NCBI GenBank assembly: GCA_024635795.1
Contig: JAGXIH010000002.1
Coordinates: forward strand, 1-45,095
Reading direction: 5' to 3'
From: Salegentibacter sp.
Lineage (GTDB): Bacteria > Bacteroidota > Bacteroidia > Flavobacteriales > Flavobacteriaceae
Length of the DNA: 45,095 nucleotides
Part shown: positions 18,022 to 35,801 of the stretch, one piece after another
Position numbering within the stretch: the first letter of the stretch is position 1
Layout: the number at the start of each line of letters is the position of its first letter
Program-made: the position numbers and the translations under genes
The notes under the pieces: generated by a model
What the model was told of the DNA's origin: nothing
Databases searched by the model: none
Seen by the model: the letters and a program-made list of their open reading frames with translations, nothing else

Positions 18022-18058
18022 AAGGAGCTTCCCACCTGGCACAGGTAAAAAGCTCCTT
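18022..18058 (-). terminator. hairpin behind the HEPN-like gene
   Basis: Outer arms AAGGAGCTT (18022-18030) and AAGCTCCTT (18050-18058) enclose an inner ACCTG/CAGGT stem (18034-18046). On the minus strand it follows the stop at 18107 and is succeeded by TTTATATAAGA, so it likely terminates the nifJ-side transcripts. Confidence 0.65.
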
Positions 18059-18534: not shown

Positions 18535-21500
18535 TTACATATCTCTAAAGAGCTGAAGTTTCTCCCATTTGGTTTCCACTTCTTCCTGTGCCCGTTTTAA
18601 AAGTTCAGCACCCATTTCAGCGTCCTCCTTCACTACCCGGGTAAATCGGGTTTCTTTGTACATAAAGTCGCTTAAAGGAGCTGCCGGAGCTTTTGAATCC
18701 AGTTTAAACCTCTTGCCTTTTGGCTTGGCAGGGTTAAACCTGAACAATGGCCAGTAACCGGTTTCAACCGCTTTTTCCTGTTGAGTAACTCCGTGTTTCA
18801 GTTCATAACCGTGTTCTCCACAATGTGAGTACGCGATAATGATAGAAGGACCGGGATAAGCTGCTGCCTCTTCAATGGCTTTAAGAGTCTGAAGGTCTTT
18901 TGCTCCAATAGCAACCTGTGCTACATACACATTTTGATAGGATACCGCTTGCAAGGCCAGGTTCTTCTTAGAAGATTTTTTACCTGATACCGCGAACTTG
19001 GCGCTTGCTCCCAGAGGAGTAGCTTTAGACATTTGTCCTCCGGTATTCGAGTAAACCTCAGTATCCATAACCAGGATATTGATATCTTCACCTGAAGCCA
19101 GTACATGGTCTACTCCACCGTATCCAATATCATAGGCCCAGCCATCGCCACCTAGTATCCATACCGCTTTTTTGCGCAGGTATTGGGTAAGCTGGTTCAG
19201 TTTTCGGGCTTCATCGGTATCGATAGTCTCCAGAATAGCTTTAAGTTCGGCTATATGAGCGTGTTTCTGTTTCTTCTGAGTTTCATCCTCTTCAGAATTA
19301 TTCAGAATAGATGCAACAAGCTCTTTTCCTATTACCGGTTCCAGTTCTTTAAGTAGATCTACAGCGATTTCCTGTTTTTTGGACAGGGCCAGCTTCATAC
19401 CTAAACCAAATTCGGCATTATCTTCAAAAAGGGAGTTAGCCCAAGCCGGTCCTCTTCCAAACTCGTTGGTTTTATAAGGAGTTGTAGGCAGGTTACCTCC
19501 ATAAATTGAGGAACATCCTGTGGCATTTGCTATCAAAATACTATCCCCATATAATTGAGTAAGCATTTTAATATATGGGGTTTCCCCACATCCGGAACAG
19601 GCTCCTGAGAACTCAAACAGTGGCTCAAGAAATTGTGAGCCTTTAAGGTTTGTGATCTGGAGATCTGAACGTTCGTAATAAGGTAAGTCTGTGAAGTAAT
19701 CCCAGTTCTGATTCTGTTCAGCAGCAACATCGAGTTTGCTATGCATATTGATGGCCTTGAAGTTCTCGATCTCCTTGCTTTCAGCAGGACAAACTGCAAC
19801 ACAAAGGTCACAGCCAGTACAATCTTCAGGAGAAACCTGAAGGATATAGGATTCAGCATTGCTATCAAAAGGACGACCTTTGGCAGGAACTGCTTTAAAG
19901 GTGCCCGGAGCATTGGCCAGTTGCTCGTTAGAGACAACTTTAGACCTTATGGCGGCGTGCGGACAGATAGCCACACATTTATTACACTGGGTACAAAGAT
20001 CTTCCCCGTCCCAAACAGGAACGAAATCAGCGATCCCGCGTTTTTCAAATTGGGTGGTACCGGTTGGGAAGGTTCCGTCTACCGGGAAAGCACTCACCGG
20101 CAATCCATCTCCCTCACCTGCCAGGATCTTACCGAGAACCTCTTTCACAAAAGGATCGGCATCTCCGGTCATCATTGGTTTTAGTCCATGAGTACTGGTG
20201 ATTTGTTTTGGATAATCTACTTTCTGAAGATTCGCGAGAGAGCTGTCTACGGCGTCAAAATTCATCTTCACGATCTTATCTCCTTTATGAGAGTAAGATT
20301 TTACGATAGCATCCTTGATCTTCTGAATAGCTTCATCTTTAGGTACTACGCCGGAAATCGCGAAGAAACAGGTTTGCAACACCGTATTGGTCCTTTTCCC
20401 CAGTTTTGCTTCCTGGGCCACTTTAGTAGCATCTATTACGTAGAACTCAAGTTCATTTTCCACGATCTCCTCCTGCATTCTTTGAGGAAGTTTATCCCAG
20501 ATCTCTTCATTAGAGAAAGGTGCGTTAAGAAGGAAAGTTCCTCCTTTTTTTACCTTTTTCAGAATGTCATATTTTTCAATGAAATTAAACTGATGACAAG
20601 CAATAAAATCGGCGGTATTTATAAGGTAACTGGAAAAGATAGGTTCCGGACCAAAACGAAGGTGGGAGACAGTTTGTGCACCTGCCTTTTTAGAGTCGTA
20701 AACAAAATAGCCCTGTACATAGTTATCGGTAGTTTCCCCGATGATCTTAATGGAGTTTTTGTTTGCTCCCACAGTACCATCAGAACCTAAACCATAGAAC
20801 ATACAGTTGAAGGTCGCTTTTTTGGTTTTGAAAACCGGGTTATAAAGCAGACTCTTAAAGCTCAGGTCATCATTAATACCGATAGTAAAGTGGTTCTTTG
20901 GCTCGGCTTTGAACATTTCATCAAAAACACCTTTTACCATCGCAGGATTGAATTCTTTAGAAGATAATCCATAGCGACCACCAATAATCTGGGGCATTGC
21001 CCGATCGCTTTCAACAAAAGCAGTGATCACATCAAGATATAAAGGCTCCCCGGTACTTCCCGGTTCTTTGGTCCTGTCTAAAACAGCGATCTTTTTAACG
21101 CTGGATGGAATTTTGTCCATAAAATCCTTCATAGAGAAAGGCCTGTAAAGTCGGATGAACAAAGCACCAACTTTCTCATCATCATTGAGCAGGGTCTCCA
21201 CGGTTTCCTTCACCGCACCTTCCCCGGAGCCCATAATAATAATAAGTCTTTCAGCTTCTGGATGGCCTACATAGTCATAAAGGTTATATCGACGACCGGT
21301 ATGAGCGTAAAATTCGTCCATTACATCCTGAACGATGCCCGGTACTTTTTCATAATGCAAATTGGAAGCTTCTCTGGCCTGGAAGAAAACATCAGGGTTT
21401 TGAGAAGTACCTCTAATCACCGGGCTATCGGGATCAAGAGACCGGTTTTTATGGTCCATAATCTTATCTTCCGGCATCATTTTCTTAATGATATCGTCGG

Positions 21501-22065
21501 TGATCCCATCAATTTTTGAAATTTCGTGAGAGGTCCTAAACCCATCAAAAATATTCATAAACGGAACACGGCTACGCAAAGTAGCCACCTGGGAGATAAG
21601 CGCAAAATCCATCGCTTCCTGAACAGAGCCACCAAAGAGCATAGAAAAGCCCGTTTGCCGGGCTGCCATAACATCGGAATGATCTCCAAAAATTGAAAGC
21701 GCGTGGGTAGCTATCGTCCTGGCTGCCACGTGAATTACCGTAGGTAGTAATTCCCCGGCTATTTTATACATATTAGGAATCATAAGTAACAGTCCCTGCG
21801 AGGCAGTAAAGGTGGTAGTAAGCGCACCAGCCTGCAAAGAGCCATGTACGGTACCTGCGGCACCTCCTTCACTTTGCATCTCCACAATGCGCGGGATGTT
21901 ATTCCAGATATTCTTTTGGCCCTTTGAACTGAAAACATCAACGTGCTCCCCCATAGGCGAAGCGGGGGTAATAGGATAAATAGCACAGACTTCATTTGTT
22001 TTATGCGCCACTCTTGCAACCGCCTCATTGGCATCACAAATGAGTTTGGGAAATTTTTCGATCAT
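18535..22065 (-). CDS. nifJ: pyruvate:ferredoxin (flavodoxin) oxidoreductase
   Basis: At 1176 residues this is a full-length single-chain PFOR. It converts pyruvate and CoA to acetyl-CoA and CO2 and reduces ferredoxin or flavodoxin. Domain I has IYPITPASPMGEHVD and EMQSEGGAAGTVHG. The gamma-type domain includes CMFYGLGSDGTVGANKNSIK (~420-440). Two ferredoxin-type clusters lie near residues 690-760 (CTQCNKCVAICP and CTGCDLCVAVCP). A further Cys pair precedes the thiamine-diphosphate domain (SGACSGCGETPY), whose binding motif is GDGWAYDIGYGGVDH with NTGGQMSK. It follows the ferredoxin gene by 22 bp, making that protein its likely acceptor. Confidence 0.97.
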   Translation of the reverse strand: MIEKFPKLICDANEAVARVAHKTNEVCAIYPITPASPMGEHVDVFSSKGQKNIWNNIPRIVEMQSEGGAAGTVHGSLQAGALTTTFTASQGLLLMIPNMYKIAGELLPTVIHVAARTIATHALSIFGDHSDVMAARQTGFSMLFGGSVQEAMDFALISQVATLRSRVPFMNIFDGFRTSHEISKIDGITDDIIKKMMPEDKIMDHKNRSLDPDSPVIRGTSQNPDVFFQAREASNLHYEKVPGIVQDVMDEFYAHTGRRYNLYDYVGHPEAERLIIIMGSGEGAVKETVETLLNDDEKVGALFIRLYRPFSMKDFMDKIPSSVKKIAVLDRTKEPGSTGEPLYLDVITAFVESDRAMPQIIGGRYGLSSKEFNPAMVKGVFDEMFKAEPKNHFTIGINDDLSFKSLLYNPVFKTKKATFNCMFYGLGSDGTVGANKNSIKIIGETTDNYVQGYFVYDSKKAGAQTVSHLRFGPEPIFSSYLINTADFIACHQFNFIEKYDILKKVKKGGTFLLNAPFSNEEIWDKLPQRMQEEIVENELEFYVIDATKVAQEAKLGKRTNTVLQTCFFAISGVVPKDEAIQKIKDAIVKSYSHKGDKIVKMNFDAVDSSLANLQKVDYPKQITSTHGLKPMMTGDADPFVKEVLGKILAGEGDGLPVSAFPVDGTFPTGTTQFEKRGIADFVPVWDGEDLCTQCNKCVAICPHAAIRSKVVSNEQLANAPGTFKAVPAKGRPFDSNAESYILQVSPEDCTGCDLCVAVCPAESKEIENFKAINMHSKLDVAAEQNQNWDYFTDLPYYERSDLQITNLKGSQFLEPLFEFSGACSGCGETPYIKMLTQLYGDSILIANATGCSSIYGGNLPTTPYKTNEFGRGPAWANSLFEDNAEFGLGMKLALSKKQEIAVDLLKELEPVIGKELVASILNNSEEDETQKKQKHAHIAELKAILETIDTDEARKLNQLTQYLRKKAVWILGGDGWAYDIGYGGVDHVLASGEDINILVMDTEVYSNTGGQMSKATPLGASAKFAVSGKKSSKKNLALQAVSYQNVYVAQVAIGAKDLQTLKAIEEAAAYPGPSIIIAYSHCGEHGYELKHGVTQQEKAVETGYWPLFRFNPAKPKGKRFKLDSKAPAAPLSDFMYKETRFTRVVKEDAEMGAELLKRAQEEVETKWEKLQLFRDM

Positions 22066-22087
22066 TTTTTACATCTTTTTTAAAAAT

Positions 22088-22438
22088 TTATGCTCCGTGC
22101 AGCCATTCCTTTTTCTCCAGTAACTGTGCTTCAGTTTCTTCATGATTAGGATCCGGCAGACAAGCGTCTACAGGACAAACCGAAGCACACTGAGGTTCAT
22201 CGTGGAAGCCTTGACACTCGGTACATTTATCTGAAACGATAAAGTAGAATTCATCAGAGATCGGTTCTTTTTCTTCATCGGCGTCTACCTCTACTCCACC
22301 TGGCGTAGTTACGGTTCCGCTTAAAGAAGTTTCATCGGAATAAGACCATTCCTGATCGGGTTCATAAATTGCGTTGTTTGGACATTCTGAAATGCAGGCA
22401 TCACAGTTGATGCAGTCCTCTGTTATAAAAAGTGCCAT
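22088..22438 (-). CDS. 2[4Fe-4S] ferredoxin, Alvin/YfhL type with acidic insertion
   Basis: This 116-residue protein carries two clusters. The first is C9-x2-C12-x2-C15-x3-C19 (CINCDACISECP). The second is C72-x2-C75-x8-C84-x3-C88 (CTECQGFHDEPQCASVCP), where the eight-residue spacing is the mark of Alvin/YfhL ferredoxins. The C-terminal DPNHEETEAQLLEKKEWLH helix also matches that group. Between clusters it has roughly 40 residues (~25-66), many acidic, which the ~86-residue YfhL proteins lack. Located directly upstream of nifJ and divergent from korAB-nuo, it is the natural low-potential electron carrier of this region. Confidence 0.93.
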   Translation of the reverse strand: MALFITEDCINCDACISECPNNAIYEPDQEWSYSDETSLSGTVTTPGGVEVDADEEKEPISDEFYFIVSDKCTECQGFHDEPQCASVCPVDACLPDPNHEETEAQLLEKKEWLHGA

Positions 22439-22496
22439 AGATATTTATATTTTGTTAAACTATTCTATAAAGTTATAGAGCATCATCTTCTCAAAT

Positions 22497-22512
22497 TATG
22501 ACAATCATCATA
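22497..22512. promoter_or_regulatory. CRP/FNR-type palindrome 1
   Basis: TATGA-CAATCA-TCATA: half-sites of five bases with a six-base spacer, the geometry used by CRP/FNR-family dimers (TGTGA-N6-TCACA). Its centre is about 66 bp upstream of the ferredoxin ATG. A second copy with identical half-sites is 55 bp away. Confidence 0.55.
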
Positions 22513-22551
22513 TTTTTAAACAATTGAAAATCAGAAATGAAATACCGGTTT

Positions 22552-22567
22552 TATGATGTGAATCATA
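22552..22567. promoter_or_regulatory. CRP/FNR-type palindrome 2
   Basis: TATGAT-GTGA-ATCATA repeats the TATGA-N6-TCATA pattern of the site at 22497 with one further base pair of symmetry. Read as TGAT-N4-ATCA it also contains the core of an FNR box. It is about 91 bp upstream of the korA ATG. Confidence 0.55.
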
Positions 22568-22609
22568 TTTAAAAGGCAAGGGTAAATTTAAATTTGGTAA
22601 AGATCATCT

Positions 22610-22633
22610 ACTATCAGTAAGTGACCTGATAGT
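22610..22633. promoter_or_regulatory. inverted repeat just upstream of korA
   Basis: Arms ACTATCAG (22610-22617) and CTGATAGT (22626-22633) are perfect 8-bp complements with an 8-base spacer, ending 17 bp before the korA ATG. It may be an operator or a 5'-leader hairpin. Confidence 0.45.
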
Positions 22634-22650
22634 TAAAAAATACTAGGTTT

Positions 22651-24510: not shown

Positions 24511-24512
24511 TC

Positions 24513-25523
24513 ATGGAAACAACTGTAAAAAAATATACTTACAAAGATTTTGCAAATGACCAGGAAGTAAGATGGTGTCCGGGCTGTGATGACTATGTTA
24601 TTTTACGTTCGGTACAGAAAGCACTGCCTGAGACAGGAGTTAAAAAAGAAGATGTAGTCTTTATCTCAGGGATTGGCTGTTCTTCCCGTTTCCCTTATTA
24701 TATGGGAACTTATGGAATGCACGGCATTCACGGTAGAGCTCCCGCCATCGCCTCAGGAGTGAAACTCGCAAATCCAGATCTAAGTGTTTGGGTAATTACC
24801 GGAGACGGAGACAGTATGGCTATTGGAGGAAACCATTTCATACACGTATTAAGACGAAATATCGACCTAAATATCATCCTGTTTAACAACGAGATCTACG
24901 GACTTACTAAAGGACAGTTCTCGCCAACCTCCCTGGTAGGACAAAAAACCAAATCCTCACCTTATGGGAACACCCAGCCACCGTTTCAACCCGGTGAACT
25001 GGCTATAGGCGCAAAAGCAAGATTTTTCGCAAGAATAGGAGGAAATGCTCCTAAGGAAATGACCGACATCTTTATTGAAGCTCAGAAATTCAAAGGCACG
25101 TCTTTAGTAGAAGTGCTTCAAAACTGTGTGATCTTCAATGATGGTTGTTATGTAAAGTATACTGATAAGAAAGTGCGCGAAGACAAACAACTTTTTGTTG
25201 AGCATGGAAAACCTATGATCTTCGGAAAAAACAAAGATCAAGGACTGATACTAAACGGACTTAAACTGGAAACAGTCACCATAGGTGAGAACGGAGTTAC
25301 AGAGGAGGATATTCTTATTCACGACGCGAAAACCGAAGATCCTACTATGCACCAGATGCTGGTAAGGCTGGAGGATCCATTAGTGACAGGAATTATAAGA
25401 AGTTTTCAGGATGTCACGCTGGAGGAAAGAGAAGACGCGTTAACCGCACAGATAAAAGCTAAATCTGAATTCAGGAAAACCGACGATCTTTTCTTCTCTG
25501 GAGAAACTTATCAGGTAAATTGA
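24513..25523 (+). CDS. korB: 2-oxoacid:ferredoxin oxidoreductase, beta subunit
   Basis: This 336-residue partner of KorA carries thiamine diphosphate and the 4Fe-4S cluster. Visible motifs are RWCPGCDDYVIL (Cys pair), FISGIGCSSRFPYYMG (third Cys), the thiamine motif GDGDSMAIGGNHFIH followed by NNEIYGLTKGQFSPTS, and VLQNCVIFNDG (fourth Cys region). The enzyme reduces ferredoxin during 2-oxoacid oxidation. Its stop lies 73 bp before nuoA, and the gap holds an inverted repeat, so co-transcription with nuo is plausible but not certain. Confidence 0.94.
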   Translation: METTVKKYTYKDFANDQEVRWCPGCDDYVILRSVQKALPETGVKKEDVVFISGIGCSSRFPYYMGTYGMHGIHGRAPAIASGVKLANPDLSVWVITGDGDSMAIGGNHFIHVLRRNIDLNIILFNNEIYGLTKGQFSPTSLVGQKTKSSPYGNTQPPFQPGELAIGAKARFFARIGGNAPKEMTDIFIEAQKFKGTSLVEVLQNCVIFNDGCYVKYTDKKVREDKQLFVEHGKPMIFGKNKDQGLILNGLKLETVTIGENGVTEEDILIHDAKTEDPTMHQMLVRLEDPLVTGIIRSFQDVTLEEREDALTAQIKAKSEFRKTDDLFFSGETYQVN

Positions 25524-25530
25524 AACATAC

Positions 25531-25565
25531 CTGATCTGCATCAGTTTTTAAGCCCTTAAAAACTG
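25531..25565. promoter_or_regulatory. inverted repeats between korB and nuoA
   Basis: CTGAT-CTGC-ATCAG (25531-25544) resembles an FNR box (TTGAT-N4-ATCAA). It overlaps a perfect 10-bp hairpin CAGTTTTTAA-GCCC-TTAAAAACTG (25542-25565). The hairpin has no T-tract after it. The pair could act as an operator, an attenuator or an RNA processing site that sets nuo expression relative to kor. Confidence 0.5.
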
Positions 25566-25596
25566 TTAATTTTATTAACATATTAAGAACTACATT

Positions 25597-25947
25597 ATGG
25601 GTTCAGAAGCACTGATAGTATTCTTTCTCGCCGGCGTTATCCTGGTCGCCGGCGCGAATTTTATCTCAAATTTAATATCACACAAATCAGATAATCCGCA
25701 GAAAAGAGAACCTTATGAAAGTGGGATGCCTACCATAGGTCCTACCTGGGTTCAGTTTAAGGTCGGGTTTTATCTATTCGCAATCCTATTCTTAATCTTC
25801 GATGTAGAAATAGCTTTTCTGGTTCCCTGGGCCGTAGTGTATCAGGAAGTAGGAACCGTGGCTTTGGTGGAGATCATCATATTTCTGTCTATTCTGGGAT
25901 TAGGTTTGGCATATGCGTGGAAAAAAGGAGCATTAAAATGGAAGTAG
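25597..25947 (+). CDS. nuoA: complex I subunit A
   Basis: A 116-residue membrane protein with three hydrophobic helices and the NuoA/ND3 loop [40 protein letters not shown], including the conserved ExG and FDVE motifs. It belongs to the quinone-site/membrane junction of complex I. The nuoB ATG (25938) lies inside its last codons, indicating coupled translation. Confidence 0.96.
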
Positions 25948-26495
25948 AAAATCAAAAAGTACCGAAAGACTTTCCAGGCCAGGTTTTACCTGCCGGGAAT
26001 GGTGCGAATATCATTATAACCTCTTTGGATAAGGTCATTAACTGGGGGCGATCCAATTCGTTGTGGTCGCTGTACTTCGGGACAAGTTGCTGCGCCATAG
26101 AGATGATGCAAACCGGAGCTGCCCGACACGATTATTCAAGATTTGGTTTTGAGGTAGCCAGACCTTCCCCAAGGCAGGCCGACCTGATCATCATTGCCGG
26201 AACAATCGTAAATAAGATGGCTCCGGTACTACGCCGGCTTTACGACCAGATGGCCGAACCGAAATACGTGATCGCCATGGGTGCCTGTGCGATCTCAGGT
26301 GGTCCATTCTTTTATAATTCCTATTCGGTAGTAAAAGGTGCAGATCACGTGATTCCTGTAGATGTTTATGTTCCCGGATGCCCTCCGCGACCGGAAGCTT
26401 TACTTGACGGGATGCTCAAGCTCCAGGATAAAATTCGTACGGAGAGCATAAAAAACAGAAAAAATCCTGTGGAAGGTTTTGATGAAGGACTTTAA
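25938..26495 (+). CDS. nuoB: complex I subunit B
   Basis: From the ATG at 25938 the protein is 185 residues; a GTG 21 bases earlier also opens the frame, but AAAGGAG sits seven bases before the ATG and supports it. NuoB holds the terminal N2 4Fe-4S cluster: tandem Cys in [11 protein letters not shown], then [10 protein letters not shown] and [10 protein letters not shown]. The GTSCCAIE and [11 protein letters not shown] motifs are conserved. It overlaps nuoA by 10 bases. Confidence 0.97.
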
Positions 26496-26506
26496 AGAAG
26501 CTAGTT

Positions 26507-26983
26507 ATGACAAATCAAGAATTACAGGAATTGATCACCACCTGGTTTTCCGGCCCTGAAAGCGTCCACCTGGAATTTACCGAAGAAGGTTCCCAGTTTC
26601 TGAATCTTAGCATAGATCCCGAATATCTGCACGAACTAATGTCCTGGTTGAAGACAAATAATAAAACCAGTTTCGATTACCTTTTTTGCCTTACCGGGGT
26701 AGACTGGGGAAAAGAACTTGGGGTTGTCTACCATCTGGAATCTACTAAACACCGTCATATTCTGGTGGTGAAAGTACAAACTTCAGACAGAGAAAATCCG
26801 GTTTTCGATTCAGTTCAGGATATATGGCCAACCGCCAACTTTCACGAAAGAGAGGTTTTTGATCTCTTCGGAATAAAATTTAAAGGACATCCCAATTTAA
26901 AACGTCTGTTTTTATCGGAAGACTGGGAAGGCTTTCCGCTTAGGAAAGATTACGTAGATGAGGTAAATATGGTTGTTAAATAA
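26507..26983 (+). CDS. nuoC: complex I subunit C
   Basis: A 158-residue peripheral-arm protein with the NuoC signature SVQDIWPTANFHEREVFDLFGIKFKGHPNLKRLFL and LRKDY at the end. It is a separate gene, not fused with nuoD as in E. coli. It lies 11 bp after nuoB and 6 bp before nuoD. Confidence 0.96.
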   Translation: MTNQELQELITTWFSGPESVHLEFTEEGSQFLNLSIDPEYLHELMSWLKTNNKTSFDYLFCLTGVDWGKELGVVYHLESTKHRHILVVKVQTSDRENPVFDSVQDIWPTANFHEREVFDLFGIKFKGHPNLKRLFLSEDWEGFPLRKDYVDEVNMVVK

Positions 26984-26989
26984 AGAAAT

Positions 26990-28111
26990 ATGGAAACTGC
27001 TACTATAAATAACAACTTTAAATCTGAGGAATACTTCATCAATATGGGACCTCAGCACCCTGCAACTCACGGGGTTTTGCGTCTTCTTCTCACCATAGAT
27101 GGAGAAATTATAAAAAAGGTGGAACCAGACCTGGGATATATTCACCGTTCTATAGAAAAAATGTGTGAACGCGACAGCTATCAGCAGATCGTACACCTTA
27201 CCGACAGGATGGATTATCTATCCTCCCACATTAATAATGAAGCTGTTTGTCTCGCCGTTGAGAATGCCCTGGAGATTGAAGTACCTGAGCGGGTAAAAGT
27301 AATAAGGACCATTATAGACGAATTAACCAGAATTTCTTCCCACACGCTTTGGTGGGGTGTAATGGGAATGGATGTGGGGGCTCTTACCTCCTATTTCTAT
27401 GGCTTCCGTGACCGGGAATTGATAAATGATATTTTTGAGGAAACCTGCGGGGCCAGGTTAACCATGAATTATAATATTCCGGGTGGTCTGATGCAGGACA
27501 TCCATCCTAATTTTATTAAAAGGGTAAAAGAATTCATCGCTCATTTCAAGACCAAATTACCTGAATACGATAAGCTGCTAACCGGGAACATCATTTTTCA
27601 GAAGAGAACTAAAGGGGTAGGCGTTTTAAGCAAAGAAGATGCTATCGCTTATGGAGCTTCCGGCCCTGTGGCAAGAGGCTCGGGTTATTCCTGCGATGTG
27701 AGGAAATATCATCCCTATAGTGCTCTGGATAAAGTCACTTTCAACGAAGCCTTGCATACTGAAGGTGATTCTTATGCCCGGTATCTCGTAAGAATTCAGG
27801 AAATGTGGGAATCAATTTCCATCATAGAACAGCTCATTGATAATATTCCGGAAGGAGACTTCAAGGTTGCCACCAAGGCGGTAATCAAGCTTCCGAAGGG
27901 AGAATACTATCAAAAAGTAGAAACTGCAAGAGGTGAACTGGGAGTTTATATAATAAGTACCGGTGGAAAAAATCCGCACAGGATGAAATTCCGTTCTCCG
28001 GGGCTTTCAAATCTTTCCCTGTTAAACCATATAACTGTGGGCGGAAAAATTGGAGATCTGGTTGCCACGATGGCCACCATAGATATTGTTGTACCAGATA
28101 TTGATCGTTAA
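26990..28111 (+). CDS. nuoD: complex I subunit D
   Basis: A 373-residue homologue of the hydrogenase large subunit, forming the quinone site with NuoB. Motifs include GPQHPATHGVLRLLLTIDGE, EPDLGYIHRSIEKM, YLSSHINNEAV and the C-terminal DIVVPDIDR. Hydrogenase metal cysteines are absent, as expected in complex I. Confidence 0.97.
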   Translation: METATINNNFKSEEYFINMGPQHPATHGVLRLLLTIDGEIIKKVEPDLGYIHRSIEKMCERDSYQQIVHLTDRMDYLSSHINNEAVCLAVENALEIEVPERVKVIRTIIDELTRISSHTLWWGVMGMDVGALTSYFYGFRDRELINDIFEETCGARLTMNYNIPGGLMQDIHPNFIKRVKEFIAHFKTKLPEYDKLLTGNIIFQKRTKGVGVLSKEDAIAYGASGPVARGSGYSCDVRKYHPYSALDKVTFNEALHTEGDSYARYLVRIQEMWESISIIEQLIDNIPEGDFKVATKAVIKLPKGEYYQKVETARGELGVYIISTGGKNPHRMKFRSPGLSNLSLLNHITVGGKIGDLVATMATIDIVVPDIDR

Positions 28112-28121
28112 AACTGAAACA

Positions 28122-29186
28122 ATGTATAATTCCCTTATCATAACAAACAATATTCACAGCTGGGTTGTAAGTTGGATGCCGGCAGCGGTAACAGGTATTA
28201 CCGAAATGATAATGATCGCCCTGGCCTACCTGACGCTTTTTGCTGTTTTGGGCTTATTTTTGGTTTTAATGGAAAGAAAGGTAGCTGCCTGGTTCCAGTT
28301 AAGGATTGGCCCAAACAGGGTTGGTTTCTTCGGTATGTTCCAGACCATTGCCGATGCTCTTAAACTCTTATCTAAAGAGCTCACCGGCACAGATAAAGCA
28401 GATAAATTCCTATATAATTTAGCGCCTTATTTTCTTATTATTTCCTCCCTGATGGCCCTGGCCGTTTTTCCATTTTCCCAGAATCTGCAGGCCTTCGATA
28501 TAAATATTGGGATCTTTTTCCTTATTGCTATTTCCTCTATTGGAGTTATCGGGATATTACTGGGCGGCTGGAGCAGCAACAACAAATTCGCATTAATTGG
28601 TGCAATGCGTAGCGGAGTTCAAACTATTAGTTATGAGCTTTCAGTAGGACTTTCTTTACTTACTATGATCCTGCTTACCGGTAGCCTGCAACTTTCAGAA
28701 ATAATCGAAGTACAAAAAAGCGGGTGGTTGATCGTTCAGGGGCATATTCCCGCAGTGATTGCCTTTATGATCTATATGATTGCGGGAACCGCAGAAACCA
28801 ACCGGGCACCCTTTGACATGGTAGAAGCCGAATCGGAACTAGGAGCAGGTTTCCACACCGAGTACTCCGGGATGAAATTCGCTTATTTCTTTTTAGCTGA
28901 ATTCATCAATATGTTCATCATAGCGGCTATTGGAACCACAGTATTCTTCGGGGGCTGGTTGTCCCCATTTGGAATAACAGAATCTATTCCATGGCTTGGG
29001 GTATTCTGGTTCTTCCTTAAAGCTTTTGCCCTGGTGTTCTTAATGATGTGGTTCAGATGGACCTTCCCAAGGCTTAGAGTAGACCAACTCCTCACCCTGG
29101 AATGGAAATATCTATTGCCTATCAACCTGTTTAACATCGTGTTAATGGCAATAATAGTATGGCTTAATTTCACAATTCAATTTTAG
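28122..29186 (+). CDS. nuoH: complex I subunit H
   Basis: From the ATG at 28122 the protein is 354 residues; an earlier in-frame start would overlap the nuoD 3' end and adds no recognisable sequence. NuoH links the peripheral and membrane arms. Conserved motifs are WFQLRIGPNRVGFFGMFQTIADALKLLSKE, AETNRAPFDMVEAESELGAGFHTEYSG and WFRWTFPRLRVDQLL, with about eight membrane helices. It directly follows nuoD; nuoE, nuoF and nuoG are absent from the intervening 10 bp, where many bacteria place them. Confidence 0.97.
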   Translation: MYNSLIITNNIHSWVVSWMPAAVTGITEMIMIALAYLTLFAVLGLFLVLMERKVAAWFQLRIGPNRVGFFGMFQTIADALKLLSKELTGTDKADKFLYNLAPYFLIISSLMALAVFPFSQNLQAFDINIGIFFLIAISSIGVIGILLGGWSSNNKFALIGAMRSGVQTISYELSVGLSLLTMILLTGSLQLSEIIEVQKSGWLIVQGHIPAVIAFMIYMIAGTAETNRAPFDMVEAESELGAGFHTEYSGMKFAYFFLAEFINMFIIAAIGTTVFFGGWLSPFGITESIPWLGVFWFFLKAFALVFLMMWFRWTFPRLRVDQLLTLEWKYLLPINLFNIVLMAIIVWLNFTIQF

Positions 29187-29191
29187 AAATT

Positions 29192-29668
29192 ATGAGTTAT
29201 TTTTCAGACATATACCACGGAATACGAACCCTGCTAACCGGAATGGGCGTAACAGGAAAGTATTTCCTGCACTCCAGGAAAGGAGCAATCACCCAACAAT
29301 ATCCGGATAATCGTGACACGCTGAAAATGTTTGAACGTTTTCGTGGAGAGGTGGTAATGCCTCACGATGAAAATAATGAACACAGCTGCACCGGTTGCCA
29401 GAAGTGTGAGATCGCCTGCCCTAACGGCAGTATAGAAATAATCTGGGACCGCCAGGTAGATCCTGAAACCGGGAAAAAGAAAAAATTGATAGATAAGCAT
29501 ATTTATCACCTGGGAATGTGCACTCAATGCGGGTTATGCATTGATGCCTGCCCTTCAGACGCAATAAAATGGGCGCAGAATTTCGAAAATGCGGTTTACG
29601 ACAGGAGTCAGCTTACCAGAGTTTTAAACAGACCCGGTTCTAAAGTAAGAGCCGGCGTAGAAGAATAA
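29192..29668 (+). CDS. nuoI: complex I subunit I
   Basis: A 158-residue protein carrying the N6a/N6b 4Fe-4S clusters: Cys66, 69, 72 and 76 (CTGCQKCEIACP) and Cys110, 113, 116 and 120 (CTQCGLCIDACP). With NuoEFG missing from the locus it would be the outermost Fe-S subunit on the cytoplasmic face, hence a candidate docking surface for reduced ferredoxin. It starts 5 bp after nuoH. Confidence 0.96.
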   Translation: MSYFSDIYHGIRTLLTGMGVTGKYFLHSRKGAITQQYPDNRDTLKMFERFRGEVVMPHDENNEHSCTGCQKCEIACPNGSIEIIWDRQVDPETGKKKKLIDKHIYHLGMCTQCGLCIDACPSDAIKWAQNFENAVYDRSQLTRVLNRPGSKVRAGVEE

Positions 29669-29672
29669 AGAT

Positions 29673-30263
29673 ATGGAAAAGTATATTTTTTATGTTTTAG
29701 CCTTAATAATGATAGTCTCTGCCATAGCCTCGGTGAGCAGCCGAAAGATGTTGCGCTCGGTGGTCTATCTGCTTTTTGTCTTAATAGGTATAGCCGGAAT
29801 TTATTTTATGGCAGACTATAACTTTTTAGCTGCCATACAACTTACCGTTTATGCGGGAGGGATCATTGTTTTGATCATTTTTTCGGTTTTGCTGGTGCAC
29901 CATATCGATATGGAACTGGAAGTAGCTAAAAAATCCAAACGAATTATCACGGCATTAGCCTCTTTAATTGGTTTAGGCGTTTTTCTAACCACAATTTATT
30001 CGCATCCATTTGTTGAAACCACTACTGCCGTAACCACTACCACTGCAGATATAGGATTTGCTCTTTTAAGCACTGAAGCAGGTGGCTTTATTCTGCCTTT
30101 TGAAGTGATAAGTATTCTCCTGCTGGCAGTAATGATAGGAGCTATTGTGATCGCCAAGGGAGAAGACGATACTGAAGAGGAACCAAAAGAAACTCCTGTA
30201 GTAAAACAAGAAGAACCTGTTGAAAAGAAGGAAGAACTTCTGGAAAACGAGGTAACTGTTTAA
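29673..30263 (+). CDS. nuoJ: complex I subunit J
   Basis: A 196-residue membrane protein with about five helices and the conserved VYAGGIIVLIIFSVLLV helix (ND6 type). Its C-terminal ~35 residues are strongly charged (EDDTEEEPKETPVVKQEEPV then Lys/Glu-rich), a soluble tail beyond the membrane core whose role is unknown. It starts 4 bp after nuoI. Confidence 0.95.
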   Translation: MEKYIFYVLALIMIVSAIASVSSRKMLRSVVYLLFVLIGIAGIYFMADYNFLAAIQLTVYAGGIIVLIIFSVLLVHHIDMELEVAKKSKRIITALASLIGLGVFLTTIYSHPFVETTTAVTTTTADIGFALLSTEAGGFILPFEVISILLLAVMIGAIVIAKGEDDTEEEPKETPVVKQEEPVEKKEELLENEVTV

Positions 30264-30284
30264 TTGAATTAAAAAATAAGGACC

Positions 30285-30602
30285 ATGATACCCGGCATTA
30301 GCATAACAGAAATTCTCACGCTCACCTCTATCCTGTTCTTCATTGGGATTTATGGATTCATTACACGAACCAATCTAATCTCAATGTTGATCTCGGTAGA
30401 GATCATCCTGAATTCTACGGTGATAAATTTTGTGATTATCAACAAATATCTCTATCCCGAACTTTTACAGGGAGTGGTGTATTCATTATTTATAATTGCT
30501 GTGGCAGCTGCAGAAACCGCCCTGGCCGTGGCAATAATTATCAACCTCTACAAGCAAATAAGCTCTGTGGATGTAAAAGAAACTGAAACCCTGAAGTATT
30601 AA
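30285..30602 (+). CDS. nuoK: complex I subunit K
   Basis: A 105-residue, three-helix membrane protein of the NuoK/ND4L type. It has the conserved carboxylates in SMLISVEIILNS and VAAAETALAVAIIINLYK, which contribute to the proton pathway. It lies 21 bp after nuoJ. Confidence 0.96.
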   Translation: MIPGISITEILTLTSILFFIGIYGFITRTNLISMLISVEIILNSTVINFVIINKYLYPELLQGVVYSLFIIAVAAAETALAVAIIINLYKQISSVDVKETETLKY

Positions 30603-30614
30603 AAGACGGAAGCT

Positions 30615-32534
30615 ATGAACATAAGTTATCTCTTTTTAATCCCAATAATTCCCCTGGTTGTCTTTTTAGTACTGGGAATCTTCAACAAAAAGATCAAACC
30701 GGCAGTTTCGGGATGGATTGGTGTTGCCGGACTCGCCACCTCTACTATACTTTCATTTTATGCCGCCTTTCAGTACTTCTTTGTAACAGGAAAATTAGAC
30801 GGTGCCTATCAGACCTTTACTAAAAAAACGGTCTGGCTGAACTTTACAGATACTCTGCATATCGATCTCGGGATCCTAATTGATCCTATTTCCATAATGA
30901 TGCTCATCGTGGTTTCTACCATCTCGCTGATGGTGCACATCTACAGTCGCGGATATATGAAAGAGGACCCGGGATACACCAAATTCTTTGCTTTTCTTTC
31001 GCTTTTCACCTTTTCTATGTACGGTTTGGTGTTGGCTACCAATTTATTCCAGATCTATATTTTCTGGGAATTGGTAGGGGTATCCTCTTTTCTTTTAATC
31101 GGATATTATTATACGAAGAACTCGGCTGTTGCGGCGGCTAAAAAAGCTTTTATCGTAACCAGATTTGCTGATTTTGGTTTCCTTATCGGAATCCTGATCA
31201 TCGGTTTCTATACCGGCACCTGGGACTTTGAAACTCTAAATAATCCTGAAGGCGCTGCAATTGCGAACTGGGCCTCTACCTCATTTATGGGCTTATCGGT
31301 ATTAACCTGGGCCTTGATCCTCATCTTTATCGGAGGTGCGGGAAAATCGGCTATGTTCCCTTTACACATCTGGCTTCCCGATGCAATGGAAGGACCAACA
31401 CCGGTTTCGGCTTTAATACACGCGGCCACTATGGTGGTTGCAGGGGTTTACCTCGTTGCACGTCTTTTCCCGATGTATTATTTCGTCGAAGAAGGTTTCG
31501 TCTTAAATATTGTTGCCTATGTTGGCGCATTTTCCTCCCTTTTTGCTGCGATCATAGCGATCACGCAAACCGATATCAAAAGGGTGCTGGCCTTTTCTAC
31601 CATGTCTCAGATCGGGTATATGATGATGGCCCTTGGAGTTTCAGGTTATGATGGTCACGAAGGCGTAGGTTATATGGCCTCGATGTTCCACCTTTTTACA
31701 CACGCCATGTTCAAGGCTCTTTTATTCCTTGGCGCAGGTTCGGTGATTCACGCGGTACACAGCAATTATTTAAAAGATATGGGTGGCTTGAGAAAGCATA
31801 TGCCAATTACCAATATCACCTTCCTCATCGCTGCATTGGCTATCGCAGGAGTTCCGCCTCTGGCAGGTTTCTGGAGTAAGGATGAGATACTTGTGGCTGC
31901 TTTTGAAAACAGTCAATTTCTTTATTCTATAGGAATTCTGGTAGCAGGATTAACCGCTTTCTATATGTTCAGACTTTACTTCGGAATATTCTGGGGGAAA
32001 GAGACCAATTATGCTCATAAACCGAAGGAATCTCCCCGTTCTATGACTATTCCGTTGGTTATCTTGGCGATTTTTAGCATTGTGGTTGGGTTTATTCCTT
32101 TCAGTGAATACGTAACTGCCGACAAGCTGGGATTTGTTGCTCACCTAAACTATCCACTGGCGGCAACTGCGGTCCTTATAGGGCTGATAGGTATTATTTT
32201 CGCCTGGATCTTCTATAAAAAAGAAAACGACCTGGCCGAAAGGTTTGCCAATGCTTTCGGAATATTTTACCGTTGGACCAGCAACAAATTCTATTTCGAC
32301 GAACTCTATCTTTTCATAACCCGTAAACTGATCTTTAAAAGGATTTCGGCACCAATCGCCTATTTCGATAAGAAATTTGTGGACGGAACTATGGAAGGTA
32401 TCGGTAACAAAACTTTGGTTGTTGCCAATAAAATTAAAGGAATACAGTCTGGAAAAGTTCAGGATTATGCCTTCGGCTTTATAAGCGGAGTGGTGGTTCT
32501 GGCAATCGTTTTCATTTACCTATGGACTAATTAA
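30615..32534 (+). CDS. nuoL: complex I antiporter-like subunit L
   Basis: A 639-residue Mrp-like antiporter subunit with about 15 helices and the long lateral helix region at its C-terminus. Conserved segments are FWELVGVSSFLLIGYYY (key Glu), GGAGKSAMFPLHIWLPDAMEGPTPVSALIHAATMVVAGVYL and FLGAGSVIHAVH. The next subunit gene follows within 10 bp. Confidence 0.97.
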   Translation: MNISYLFLIPIIPLVVFLVLGIFNKKIKPAVSGWIGVAGLATSTILSFYAAFQYFFVTGKLDGAYQTFTKKTVWLNFTDTLHIDLGILIDPISIMMLIVVSTISLMVHIYSRGYMKEDPGYTKFFAFLSLFTFSMYGLVLATNLFQIYIFWELVGVSSFLLIGYYYTKNSAVAAAKKAFIVTRFADFGFLIGILIIGFYTGTWDFETLNNPEGAAIANWASTSFMGLSVLTWALILIFIGGAGKSAMFPLHIWLPDAMEGPTPVSALIHAATMVVAGVYLVARLFPMYYFVEEGFVLNIVAYVGAFSSLFAAIIAITQTDIKRVLAFSTMSQIGYMMMALGVSGYDGHEGVGYMASMFHLFTHAMFKALLFLGAGSVIHAVHSNYLKDMGGLRKHMPITNITFLIAALAIAGVPPLAGFWSKDEILVAAFENSQFLYSIGILVAGLTAFYMFRLYFGIFWGKETNYAHKPKESPRSMTIPLVILAIFSIVVGFIPFSEYVTADKLGFVAHLNYPLAATAVLIGLIGIIFAWIFYKKENDLAERFANAFGIFYRWTSNKFYFDELYLFITRKLIFKRISAPIAYFDKKFVDGTMEGIGNKTLVVANKIKGIQSGKVQDYAFGFISGVVVLAIVFIYLWTN

Positions 32535-32543
32535 TTGATCATT

Positions 32544-34031
32544 ATGGACATTTTATCACTCTTTGTTGTTCTTCCGGTACTAGTAATCATCGCTTTGGTT
32601 TTCACGAAAGGATTAAAGCAGGCCCGGCAAATAGCTATGGTAGGCAGTATTATTCAGTTGGGGATGGCGATAAATCTGCTCTTTGCCTACCTGAAGGAAC
32701 AAAGTATAAACGACAGCATATTCGTCTTCACCAGGGATATCGTTTGGTTTGAAGAATTCAACATCCATTATAATATTGGGGTAGACGGGATCTCGGTTGC
32801 CCTAATCCTTTTAACCTCTATAATCGTACTGGCCGGGGTTTTCATTTCCTGGAAAACCTACGATCTTCCTAAAGAATTTTTTGTTTCATTACTGGTATTG
32901 GCGACAGGGGTCTACGGGTTCTTTATTTCCATTGATCTGTTCACTATGTTCCTCTTTTATGAGATCGCGGTAATCCCTATGTATCTCCTCATTGGAATCT
33001 GGGGTTCGGGTCCTAAGGAATATTCAGCAATGAAATTAACCCTGATGTTAATGGGAGCTTCTGCCCTGTTACTGGTGGGAATTCTGGGTATCTATCTCAA
33101 CTCAAATGCAGATGGCGGGCCACTAACTTTTAGTATTCTGGAGATCGCACAGGTAAATATCCCTTTTGAAGCTCAAAAATTATTCTTCCCATTAATCTTT
33201 ATAGGTTTTGCCGTGCTGGGAGCATTATTCCCGTTTCACACCTGGTCTCCCGATGGTCATGCCTCGGCCCCTACCGCAGTCTCTATGCTGCACGCAGGGG
33301 TTCTAATGAAATTAGGGGGCTACGGAGTTTTCAGAGTTGCGATGTTCCTTCTTCCTGAAGGCGCTATGGAATGGTCCTGGTTCTTCATCATCTTATCGGC
33401 GACTGGGGTGATCTACGGAGCTTTTGCCGCAATAAGACAAACCGATCTAAAATATATCAACGCTTACGCTTCGGTTAGTCACCTGGGACTGGTGTTATTT
33501 GCCTTATTAATGTTGAATAAAACCGCCTGGAACGGAGCGATATTACAATCATTATCCCACGGCTTTATGACAGCGCTTTTCTTCGCCTTAATCGGGATGA
33601 TCTATACCAGAACTAATACGCGGGATATTACCAAGTTGGGAGGACTTTTAAAAGTAATCCCATTTATTTCGGTAATATATGTTATCGCAGGCCTGGCTTA
33701 CCTGGGCTTGCCGGGCTTCAGCGGATTTGTAGCCGAAATGAACATTTTTGTAGGAGCATTTCAGAATGAAGATATGTTCCACAGGGTGGTCACCATAATA
33801 TCGGTTTCATCAATCGTAGTTACCGCAGTATACATCTTACGAGTAGTAGGAATAATACTGATGGGGCCTGTGAAGAATGAAAGCTACTTAAGCCTTCCAC
33901 AAGCTACCTGGTATGAGACAACCGGGGTGCTTTTACTGCTTCTTCCAATAGTAGGAATTGGGGTAGCGCCGTTGTGGCTAAGCGATATGATATTAAAAAG
34001 TTTACAACCCTTTTTGCAGGGAGTATTATAA
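32544..34031 (+). CDS. nuoM: complex I antiporter-like subunit M
   Basis: From the ATG at 32544 the protein is 495 residues; the frame could start at a TTG directly behind the nuoL stop, but the ATG is preferred. Signatures are TMFLFYEIAVIPMYLLIGIWG (key Glu), GALFPFHTWSPDGHASAPTAVSMLHAGVLMKLGGYG and INAYASVSHLGLVLFAL. It is a proton-pumping membrane subunit with about 14 helices. Confidence 0.97.
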   Translation: MDILSLFVVLPVLVIIALVFTKGLKQARQIAMVGSIIQLGMAINLLFAYLKEQSINDSIFVFTRDIVWFEEFNIHYNIGVDGISVALILLTSIIVLAGVFISWKTYDLPKEFFVSLLVLATGVYGFFISIDLFTMFLFYEIAVIPMYLLIGIWGSGPKEYSAMKLTLMLMGASALLLVGILGIYLNSNADGGPLTFSILEIAQVNIPFEAQKLFFPLIFIGFAVLGALFPFHTWSPDGHASAPTAVSMLHAGVLMKLGGYGVFRVAMFLLPEGAMEWSWFFIILSATGVIYGAFAAIRQTDLKYINAYASVSHLGLVLFALLMLNKTAWNGAILQSLSHGFMTALFFALIGMIYTRTNTRDITKLGGLLKVIPFISVIYVIAGLAYLGLPGFSGFVAEMNIFVGAFQNEDMFHRVVTIISVSSIVVTAVYILRVVGIILMGPVKNESYLSLPQATWYETTGVLLLLLPIVGIGVAPLWLSDMILKSLQPFLQGVL

Positions 34032-34049
34032 TTTAAACAAAGAACGAAA

Positions 34050-35480
34050 ATGGAACTTAGTAGTTTTTTCCTGATGCGGCACGAGATGGTCCTCCTGGCA
34101 ATAGCCCTGATCCTTATTATTGCTGAAATCCTTATTCCGAAGCAAAAAAAATCCAGTGCTGTTCATCTGGCTATATTTCTCTTCGGAATACATACTGCGC
34201 TGGGCTTTTTCCCACTGGAAGAAAGCAGTTTGTTCGGCGGGATGTTCAGAACCAACAGCCTGATTCACTTCTTCAAAAATGTATTGAATATCGGAGTATT
34301 TATCCTCCTGCTACAGTCAGCCGACTGGATTCAGGAAAAGATCGTAAAACTAAATCGCGGCACCGAATTTTTCATCCTGCTCTTCTTTTCTCTTCTGGGA
34401 ATGTATTTTATGATCTCTGCCGGCGACTTCCTGATGTTCTATATAGGAATGGAACTTTCCACTATTCCGGTAGCCGCTCTGGCAGCTTTTGAATTGGTAA
34501 AAAGGACTTCCAGTGAAGCGGGTATAAAGCTTATTCTTTCGGCGGCCCTGGCTTCGGGAATTTCACTATTTGGGATCTCTTTGCTCTATGCAACTTCAGG
34601 ATCCATATATTTTCACGACATTATTGAGGTAATAACCTCCAACAATTTAACTATCCTGGGGTTTGTGCTGTTTTTTGCAGGATTGGCTTTCAAGATTTCA
34701 CTGGTGCCATTCCACTTCTGGACGGCCGATGTTTATGAAGGAGCCCCGATAAGTGTGGCTTCTTATCTTTCGGTTATTTCTAAAGGAGCAGCGGTTTTTA
34801 TTTTAATGATTCTGATGTTTACTGTACTTAGACCTTTAATGGAGGTATGGGAAAATATGATCTACGTGGTGGCTTTAGCAACCATGTTTGTGGGTAATCT
34901 ATTCGCCCTCCGCCAACAGAATATGAAGCGTTTCCTCGCCTTCTCCTCTATCGCGCAGGCCGGTTTTATTTTACTGGGCCTCATAACCGGAACTCAACTG
35001 GGAACAGCTTCCGTAGTATATTTTGTGATGATCTATATCTTTTCAAACCTGGCTGCCTTTGGGGTAGTTCAGGCAATTTCCTTAAAAACCGGTAAAGAAA
35101 ACATAGATGATTATAATGGTTTGTACCGAACCAATCCTAAGTTGAGTCTTATCATGCTACTGGCTTTATTCTCCCTGGCGGGAATTCCTCCGGTGGCAGG
35201 TTTCTTCGGAAAATTCTTCCTGTACACAGCGGCGGCTAGCGAAGGTTATTACTTCCTGGTCTTCCTTGCAGTGGTAAACGTTACCATCTCCTTATATTAC
35301 TATCTACTGGTAGTAAGAGCAATGTTCTTACGCACAAACGAAAACCCAATCCCATTTTTCAATAATAAGCTTTATATGAGATTAGGACTTGGAATTACGG
35401 TAATTGGTATCCTGGTATTAGGTGTTTACAGTCCGTTATATGATTATATTTATGAACTAAGCGCAGTTTTTAATCAATAA
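34050..35480 (+). CDS. nuoN: complex I antiporter-like subunit N
   Basis: A 476-residue membrane protein of the NuoN/ND2 type: DFLMFYIGMELSTIPVAALAAFE (key Glu), GLAFKISLVPFHFWTADVYEGAPISVASYLSVISKGAAVF and FLAFSSIAQAGFILLGL. It is the last recognised nuo gene of the operon; the next ORF starts 3 bp after its stop. Confidence 0.97.
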   Translation: MELSSFFLMRHEMVLLAIALILIIAEILIPKQKKSSAVHLAIFLFGIHTALGFFPLEESSLFGGMFRTNSLIHFFKNVLNIGVFILLLQSADWIQEKIVKLNRGTEFFILLFFSLLGMYFMISAGDFLMFYIGMELSTIPVAALAAFELVKRTSSEAGIKLILSAALASGISLFGISLLYATSGSIYFHDIIEVITSNNLTILGFVLFFAGLAFKISLVPFHFWTADVYEGAPISVASYLSVISKGAAVFILMILMFTVLRPLMEVWENMIYVVALATMFVGNLFALRQQNMKRFLAFSSIAQAGFILLGLITGTQLGTASVVYFVMIYIFSNLAAFGVVQAISLKTGKENIDDYNGLYRTNPKLSLIMLLALFSLAGIPPVAGFFGKFFLYTAAASEGYYFLVFLAVVNVTISLYYYLLVVRAMFLRTNENPIPFFNNKLYMRLGLGITVIGILVLGVYSPLYDYIYELSAVFNQ

Positions 35481-35483
35481 GTT

Positions 35484-35801
35484 ATGGCACTAGAAGGAAA
35501 ACATACATTTGGCAGTATTGGAGACACAAGGGTTAGCTTCGTGGAAAAGAAAATAGACGAAGAAAGAAAAGATTTCCTGAAAAAACTACTGGAACATAAC
35601 GGCTTTGAAGTCATTGTTGAAGAAGAAAAACGAAAAACCGAAGAAGAGCCTCAACTCTACACCGTAGCCGTAACAGATATGGTTTTTAATCCCACTACCT
35701 ATGTCTTTGAGCGCCGCCTAAAAACCTTTGACGGGCATAAGGTCACCCAGGATTACTGGAACCAGAAATCGGAAGATACTAATCCGCATTATTGGAAATA
35801 A
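35484..35801 (+). CDS. uncharacterised small protein at the end of the nuo operon
   Basis: This 105-residue hydrophilic protein has no signal peptide or membrane helix. The N-terminal half is highly charged and helical (FVEKKIDEERKDFLKKLLEH); the C-terminal half looks like strands (YTVAVTDMVFNPTTYVFERR). No cysteines are present, so it does not hold an Fe-S cluster. It begins 3 bp after the nuoN stop, so it must be co-transcribed with complex I. It could be an accessory or assembly protein of the 11-subunit complex, but no family was recognised. Confidence 0.8.
   Translation: MALEGKHTFGSIGDTRVSFVEKKIDEERKDFLKKLLEHNGFEVIVEEEKRKTEEEPQLYTVAVTDMVFNPTTYVFERRLKTFDGHKVTQDYWNQKSEDTNPHYWK

Follow-up and report, generated by a model that had tools for sequence, protein, structure and literature searches.

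This work concerns a block of genes on a 45,095-nucleotide contig of Salegentibacter sp. (assembly GCA_024635795.1, contig JAGXIH010000002.1; C22 in our numbering), which was analysed as one entire contig and is called the window below. Between window positions 18107 and 35801 lies an island encoding a pyruvate:ferredoxin oxidoreductase (PFOR), a ferredoxin (fdx), the two subunits of a 2-oxoacid:acceptor oxidoreductase (KOR; korAB), and an 11-subunit complex I without NuoE, NuoF and NuoG, here termed headless (Table 1). An earlier note on this DNA had placed it in a probable flavobacterium, and had proposed that pyruvate and 2-oxoglutarate oxidation feeds the complex I through ferredoxin. The host, a marine bacterium, is indeed a Salegentibacter, the nearest named loci being those of S. 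flavus (NuoD 99%) and S. sediminis (NuoD 98%). The genome to which the window belongs (1.98 Mb) is 61.6% complete and hence too partial to prove absence; near-complete relatives were used instead.

Table 1. Genes and features of the island and its right-hand border, with supporting family models or linkage counts. Assessable loci are those whose contig extends far enough.
Feature	Position in window	Strand	Support
Stem resembling a terminator, 17 pairs with T tail, immediately 3' of the Cys-HEPN gene	18022..18058	-	consensus scan
orf18107 (Cys-HEPN), 124 aa, probable HEPN fold, five conserved cysteines	18107..18481	-	3' of PFOR in 34/41 assessable loci
PFOR (nifJ-type), 1176 aa	18535..22065	-	TIGR02176 1747.4 bits, cut-off 911
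fdx, 116-aa 2[4Fe-4S] ferredoxin, long acidic insert, net charge -24	22088..22438	-	NF033683 96.7 bits, cut-off 86
korA, alpha subunit (fused gamma-alpha), 619 aa	22651..24510	+	TIGR03710 647 bits, cut-off 483; PF01558, PF01855
korB, beta subunit, 336 aa	24513..25523	+	TIGR02177 243.6 bits, under cut-off 261.9
nuoA	25597..25947	+	PF00507 E 3.3e-36
nuoB, 4 cluster cysteines present	25917..26495	+	TIGR01957 241.9 bits, cut-off 142.7
nuoC	26507..26983	+	TIGR01961 127.8 bits, cut-off 122.5
nuoD	26990..28111	+	NF004739 440 bits, cut-off 360
nuoH (longest reading frame from 28086)	28122..29186	+	NF004741 335.6 bits, cut-off 305; PF00146
nuoI, two CxxCxxCxxxCP motifs	29192..29668	+	TIGR01971 90 bits, under cut-off 113
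nuoJ	29673..30263	+	NF005163 E 2.6e-28, 98.8 bits, under cut-off 174
nuoK	30285..30602	+	NF004320 86.4 bits, cut-off 57
nuoL	30615..32534	+	TIGR01974 608 bits, cut-off 407.5
nuoM	32535..34031	+	TIGR01972 417.5 bits, cut-off 263.8
nuoN	34050..35480	+	TIGR01770 369.7 bits, cut-off 332.6
orfX, 105 aa, conserved	35484..35801	+	directly 3' of nuoN in 63/63 assessable loci
orfY, 319 aa	35792..36751	+	among the 80 named loci, only in two Salegentibacter carriers

The gene order nuoABCDHIJKLMN, which the earlier note had called complete, was confirmed by family scans (25597–35480, forward strand), and most parts of the island reach the curated level of their family models. Two further details of that note also held: nuoH begins 10 bases past nuoD (ATG at 28122, nuoD stop at 28111), and korAB lies directly before nuo, with the ferredoxin gene and nifJ divergent from it. 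The cluster ligands are intact among relatives: NuoI retains all 8 cysteines of clusters N6a and N6b in 84 of 84 sequences, and NuoB the 4 of cluster N2 in 74 of 74. In membrane-bound [NiFe] hydrogenases (Mbh/Ech), the NuoD-like subunit carries CxxC pairs for the NiFe centre. The NuoD translation has four isolated cysteines and no CxxC, and this identity was rejected.

On the donor side, the PFOR scores above the curated cut-off for the single-chain (NifJ) enzyme, and fdx above that for YfhL-type 2[4Fe-4S] ferredoxins. The nearest solved chains to the latter are YfhL and similar ferredoxins of 80–85 aa; the acidic insert of fdx sits between its two cluster motifs and is absent from these solved relatives. 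korA passes the 2-oxoacid superfamily model only (TIGR03710), and 2-oxoglutarate as the KOR substrate is a family-level assignment. The stem at the left end is the probable end of an fdx-PFOR-HEPN unit, a single such site being weak alone: 26 terminator-like sites were found, compared with 18.4 (sd 4.1) in shuffled sequences.

Both ends of the island carry a gene that the earlier note missed, even though the interval it described ended at 35801, the last base of orfX. The first, orfX, has 26 invariant columns across 57 aligned sequences and was detected by profile search in 63 of 80 relatives' loci (the sample is described below). It belongs to no Pfam family (E up to 1) and no NCBIfam family; its AlphaFold model (pLDDT 80.8) has no Foldseek match in PDB at E<0.001, the best structural match being PII-like (E 0.08). 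With no significant match among PDB sequences either, assignment of orfX to a known family was abandoned. The second, orf18107, encodes a protein that we call Cys-HEPN, detected in 37 of the same 80 loci. Its five cysteines are invariant in 32 sequences and, in a wider set of 41 that includes distant ones, are kept in 41, 38, 40, 40 and 40. The AlphaFold model (pLDDT 82) is matched best by HEPN domains (Foldseek probability 1.0, TM 0.65–0.68, but E 0.05–0.15), and the match to PF05168 lies under the cut-off (E 0.066). HEPN ribonucleases have a conserved R...H catalytic motif; no R or H is found among the invariant or near-invariant columns of the Cys-HEPN alignment, and identity as a HEPN ribonuclease was rejected.

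To place the island among relatives, a NuoD scan of GTDB species genomes was used; it returned 356 relatives, the best 80 of which were retained (the 80 named loci). These span 15 genera: Salegentibacter, Christiangramia, Gramella, Salinimicrobium, Lutibacter, Maribacter, Eudoraea, Aestuariivivens, Aequorivita, Seonamhaeicola, Flavobacterium, Yeosuana, Muriicola, Robiginitalea and Botryobacter. A full set of 11 nuo genes (at least 50% identity, ordered, on one strand) occurs in 62 of the 80 loci; the other 18 lack genes solely towards the ends of that order. In every assessable locus (62/62), fdx is the divergent neighbour of korA, and korAB directly precedes nuoA in 65 of 67, the exceptions being L115 (inserted open reading frames, ORFs) and L059 (other genes there). 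On the far side of fdx, PFOR is found in 42 of 57 loci; of the 15 without it, nine carry the label Lutibacter. LepA and WD40-like neighbours beside fdx in Lutibacter were set aside as flanking genes. In L066 and L093, the Cys-HEPN gene stands beside fdx with no PFOR.

NuoD was found in 11 of 60 near genomes (own included), in 2 of 14 Salegentibacter relatives, and in 4 of 36 family relatives. KOR alpha occurs in the same four family relatives, the remaining 32 having neither. Further afield, a phylum sample gave 10 genomes with orfX, the own one among them; in the remaining nine, judging by coordinates, a nuoB lies ~8.9–9.7 kb upstream of it in the same orientation. korAB-nuo-orfX also occurs in two genomes of another family (G144, G279), preceded there by a different divergent 100-aa ORF, which in G144 is a Fer4-type dicluster protein. 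Neither orfX nor any fdx, korA or PFOR match was found beside nuo in 13 other Bacteroidota nuo loci (L159–L171, stretches of 8–20 kb). orfX was likewise not found in L041 and L042; a DnaJ/TerB gene after nuoN in L041 was set aside as a flanking gene.

A number of insertions were observed within the nuo operons of relatives. Small ORFs of the 23S_rRNA_IVP family (PF05635) lie between nuo genes at L065:13237-13590 and L079:16172-16528 (both Pfam-scanned), and similar ORFs occur in L071, L085 and L114 (BLAST cluster only). A PDDEXK_3 ORF precedes nuoL in L056, and two Maribacter metagenome-assembled genomes (MAGs) hold a 496–498-aa ORF between nuoC and nuoD (L054:2233-3729; L061:5772 onward), with no Pfam match for the L054 ORF. 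In the window's own assembly, a second contig (C15; L043, 7232 bases) runs from part of PFOR to the start of nuoD, matching window positions 19844–27069 at 91.3%; it represents either another copy of the island or another Salegentibacter strain binned with the first. Finally, orfY, which overlaps the end of orfX, is probably not part of the module.

How might electrons enter a complex I of this kind? The absence of nuoE, nuoF and nuoG from the locus, claimed in the earlier note, extends to relatives: tblastn (E 1e-4) with NuoE, NuoF and NuoG of a complete complex I gave no match in 88 loci. The same search speaks against an epsilonproteobacterial-type Nuo, in which NuoG is kept and NuoEF replaced by NuoXY; no NuoG was found in the 88 loci. 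One alternative to ferredoxin feeding is that an NADH-oxidising module (N-module) from another locus completes the complex, be it NuoEFG or a hydrogenase or formate dehydrogenase that carries NuoEF, with entry of NADH, H2 or formate. The earlier note had suggested searching the whole genome for these subunits. Our genome-wide search covered NuoF (PF10589), while NuoE and NuoG were sought at the loci. The own genome gave no match, which at 61.6% completeness proves little, and none was present in near-complete genomes G001 and G021. Among 37 carrier genomes (37 of the 80 named loci), 20 have no NuoF, including the deposited strains S. flavus DSM 17794, Eudoraea adriatica DSM 19308 and Muriicola jejuensis KCTC 22299.

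The other 17 carriers hold 27 NuoF-type matches, mostly in NuoEF-bearing enzymes that could dock in principle, and this counts in favour of a remotely encoded N-module. The neighbourhood of each match (S. sediminis included) was inspected and classed by neighbour genes: (i) three, in Flavobacterium taihuense, F. fluvii and Botryobacter, are true NuoE-F-G triads sitting in their own nuoA-to-N operon (the Botryobacter stretch starts at nuoJ), with subunits only 26–57% identical to those of the window; (ii) seven are formate dehydrogenases, recognised by a NuoE-NuoF fusion with FdhD and an FdhA-like molybdopterin protein next to it; (iii) 16 are hydrogenase-like, the NuoE-NuoF fusion adjoining a gene in which NuoG-like and Oxidored_q6 domains are combined, as in soluble NAD-hydrogenases; and (iv) one is unplaced. 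There is a precedent for misreading such genes: formate dehydrogenase genes of Desulfitobacterium were at first mistaken for nuoEFG (PMC11238625). Apart from the unplaced match, then, no stray N-module was found in the carriers. On this NuoF-based search, nuoEFG as the usual partner encoded elsewhere was rejected, and completion by any such module appears very improbable.

The best evidence that the island is a functional unit comes from outside its class. The Cys-HEPN profile, run against 296 genomes sampled from the phylum, matched 16, own included (G193, G099, G114, G254, G347 and G348, with weak matches, were not counted as members; the first match in G099, L203 at G099:C1:471388-471750, has E 3e-16 and two in-frame TGA codons). 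In five of these genomes from another class of the phylum (G296, G213, G156, G316, G359), the Cys-HEPN gene directly follows nuoN of an 11-gene nuo operon (nuoD, nuoH and nuoI of G316 being detected by tblastn). One or two Rrf2-family genes come after Cys-HEPN in all five; four of the nine were Pfam-scanned and the rest assigned by similarity. In four of the five, the complete order on one strand is nuoABCDHIJKLMN-CysHEPN-Rrf2(-Rrf2)-PFOR-DHODH-like-fdx-korA-korB. The distant PFORs are 56–58% identical to that of the window, and the distant ferredoxins 61–64% with the same long acidic insert (window 22088–22438 versus L243:9663-10013). orfX is absent from these operons. In the G359 operon, the two Rrf2 genes are separated by a ferritin-family gene (L201:3336-3800). 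The same set in two arrangements is not what inheritance of one fixed order would produce, and points to a set that works as a unit.

A related logic is found with another pump. In G205 (L202:10054-19571, L241), a HEPN relative that lacks three of the five cysteines precedes a PFOR-like protein of 1637 aa that carries a ferredoxin domain at its C-terminus, and rnfC, D, G, E and A come next; an RnfB-like FeS protein and genes for kor alpha and beta lie further along, and G205 gave no nuoB match. This cluster is an RNF counterpart of the same module.

The two gene orders also bear on whether fdx is the immediate donor. KOR or PFOR might instead dock on NuoI/NuoB, or another carrier such as flavodoxin might be used, with fdx serving other enzymes. 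korAB stands in line with nuo on the same strand, as direct docking would have it, and the direct donor of the 11-subunit enzyme has been termed an open question (PMC11238625). Against this, korA has no more constant neighbour than fdx, and the second gene order contains the same ferredoxin with its insert. We regard a direct donor other than fdx as highly unlikely.

We thus favour ferredoxin feeding because (i) the linkage is fixed in many genera, (ii) KOR and NuoD co-occur, (iii) no stray N-module was found, and (iv) the set recurs in a second gene order. Under this proposal, the block would be a self-contained, transferable respiratory module. PFOR would oxidise pyruvate and the KOR-type enzyme, probably, 2-oxoglutarate; both would pass electrons to the acidic 2[4Fe-4S] ferredoxin dedicated to them, whose gene lies between theirs. 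The ferredoxin would in turn hand electrons to the NuoB/C/D/I arm, and the 11-subunit complex I would reduce menaquinone and pump ions. We consider this chain from PFOR and KOR through ferredoxin to headless complex I, taken as a whole, to be quite probable; from the gene content we infer the direction of electron flow, ferredoxin as direct donor, ion pumping and menaquinone as acceptor. The central claim of the earlier note is thus strongly favoured by genome linkage and co-occurrence, while its 2-oxoglutarate part stands at family level and its electron transfer is predicted.

Several observations weigh against this proposal. NuoI, nuoJ and korB score under their best NCBIfam cut-offs. Judged at the locus only, korAB is not before nuo in L059, and 15 of 57 loci lack PFOR next to fdx. 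In the G213 stretch, nuo-HEPN-Rrf2 is not accompanied by PFOR, fdx or kor, and the unplaced NuoF-type match (G067:C87) lies at a contig end in a Lutibacter MAG. In Bacteroides fragilis, the headless Nuo made no contribution to NADH:quinone activity, but nuo was poorly expressed in rich medium, so the absent activity is no clean proof of another donor (PMC7002350). The generality of the Cys-HEPN link is limited: 20 of the 57 loci tested for PFOR have no HEPN gene in their stretch.

The host background indicates what the module would add. Na+-translocating NADH:quinone oxidoreductase (Na+-NQR; NQRA) and the E1 component of NAD-linked 2-oxoglutarate dehydrogenase (OGDH) were found in all 14 Salegentibacter congeners, both carriers included for NQR; in the own genome, at 61.6% completeness, neither was matched. 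Replacement of OGDH by KOR in the genus was therefore rejected, and the module adds to NADH-linked respiration: it would provide a ferredoxin:quinone route alongside the NADH:quinone route and OGDH. The same finding can be turned towards reverse operation, in which menaquinol and the ion gradient drive complex I backwards and reduced ferredoxin supports reductive carboxylation through PFOR and KOR, for CO2 fixation or anaplerosis, since all 14 congeners already have OGDH for oxidation. Both PFOR and KOR can run in either direction and take part in reductive tricarboxylic acid cycles; the cultured carriers, however, are known as heterotrophs. The L. profundi authors consider that PFOR may run in reverse, but found no ATP citrate lyase in that organism (PMC5219744). 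On balance, reverse operation seems improbable, and we retain the oxidative, ferredoxin-feeding direction.

The island apparently moves horizontally. Protein distances of seven island genes barely correlate with those of groEL, the single marker used (Spearman 0.12, p 0.02; 406 pairs, 29 genomes; 30 genomes were requested, and G071, with no match, and G068, with a split gene, were dropped). Botryobacter, a member of the Cytophagales, is 74% identical to the window in groEL and 83.5% in the island; in the midpoint-rooted island tree it is tentatively placed beside Salegentibacter. The groEL topology was rejected by the island data, with a p-value that is indicative only (1000 resamplings, with a warning). 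Ten of the 12 island-free congeners were opened: all ten share the window's left flank up to groEL and then have no island gene. A two-sided empty site was not found in these ten, and right flanks vary among genomes, carriers too. No match to orfX was found in 72,556 plasmid records, a test of plasmid carriage through this gene.

OrfX is a candidate subunit or assembly factor, and both it and Cys-HEPN probably serve the module, be it in docking, in assembly, or in protection or regulation of the iron-sulphur enzymes. Given that Cys-HEPN occurs near PFOR, ferredoxin, Rrf2 regulators and either headless complex I or RNF, our guess is a role in iron-sulphur protection, sensing or maturation. Photosynthetic NDH-1 uses NdhS/NdhO-type subunits for ferredoxin docking. 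By analogy, OrfX could be the missing ferredoxin-docking (12th) subunit with an NdhS-like role, and Cys-HEPN a cluster-binding guard or sensor of PFOR; we offer this more specific pair of roles as speculation, and would sooner doubt it than accept it. If it were true, then together with the insert-bearing fdx there would be a complex I with its whole donor chain fixed as one mobile module. A functional parallel, involving no homologue of Cys-HEPN, is provided by the hemerythrins reported to protect Por and Oor in Campylobacter (PMC4257069).

These proteins matter for a standing question. The Desulfitobacterium work reports a failed search for a common donor protein (PMC11238625), and the B. 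fragilis work draws the donor as unknown (PMC7002350). The island supplies specific candidates—one ferredoxin, two donor enzymes and two further proteins—and makes the donor question directly testable in deposited strains. It further hints that bacteria already possessing an NADH route could acquire an energy-conserving route from ferredoxin by horizontal transfer. In open-access literature, consulted mostly at title and abstract level, no description of the island, orfX or the Cys-HEPN link was found.

Comparison with known systems shows which elements are shared. The pairing occurs elsewhere and is not new in concept: headless complex I has already been reported in Bacteroidetes (PMC6560451, PMC7002350), where it occurs alongside NQR, as in Salegentibacter. 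The enzymes of Bacteroides, Prevotella and Desulfitobacterium are likewise nuoABCDHIJKLMN without NuoEFG (PMC7002350, PMC6560451, PMC11238625), and PFOR with ferredoxin has been proposed as donor in Desulfitobacterium (PMC11238625); the Salegentibacter island differs in also holding the donor enzymes and a dedicated ferredoxin. In the genome paper on L. profundi, complex I, NQR and PFOR are all listed but, in the text available, not connected (PMC5219744). A similar logic applies to the epsilonproteobacterial Nuo without NuoEF, in which POR and OOR feed a low-potential flavodoxin or ferredoxin (PMC6682613), although that enzyme has NuoX/NuoY, and Campylobacter jejuni keeps NuoG (PMC7002350). 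Photosynthetic NDH-1 of cyanobacteria and chloroplasts shares the 11 core subunits and the ferredoxin donor, with a PFOR partnership in Synechocystis (PMC8887894); no photosynthesis-specific subunit family was seen in the island, and orfX is without a Pfam match at E up to 1. A further comparison is with aerobic Brevibacillus massiliensis, for which a ferredoxin-dependent complex I has been proposed: a headless Nuo with ferredoxin-linked 2-oxoglutarate oxidation, albeit in another phylum, with a tungsten enzyme as the studied donor and no gene island described in the text available (PMC9424855). Ferredoxin-fed headless complex I is thus a known idea; what is new in Salegentibacter and its relatives is a dedicated, apparently horizontally moved module, together with its unstudied partners.

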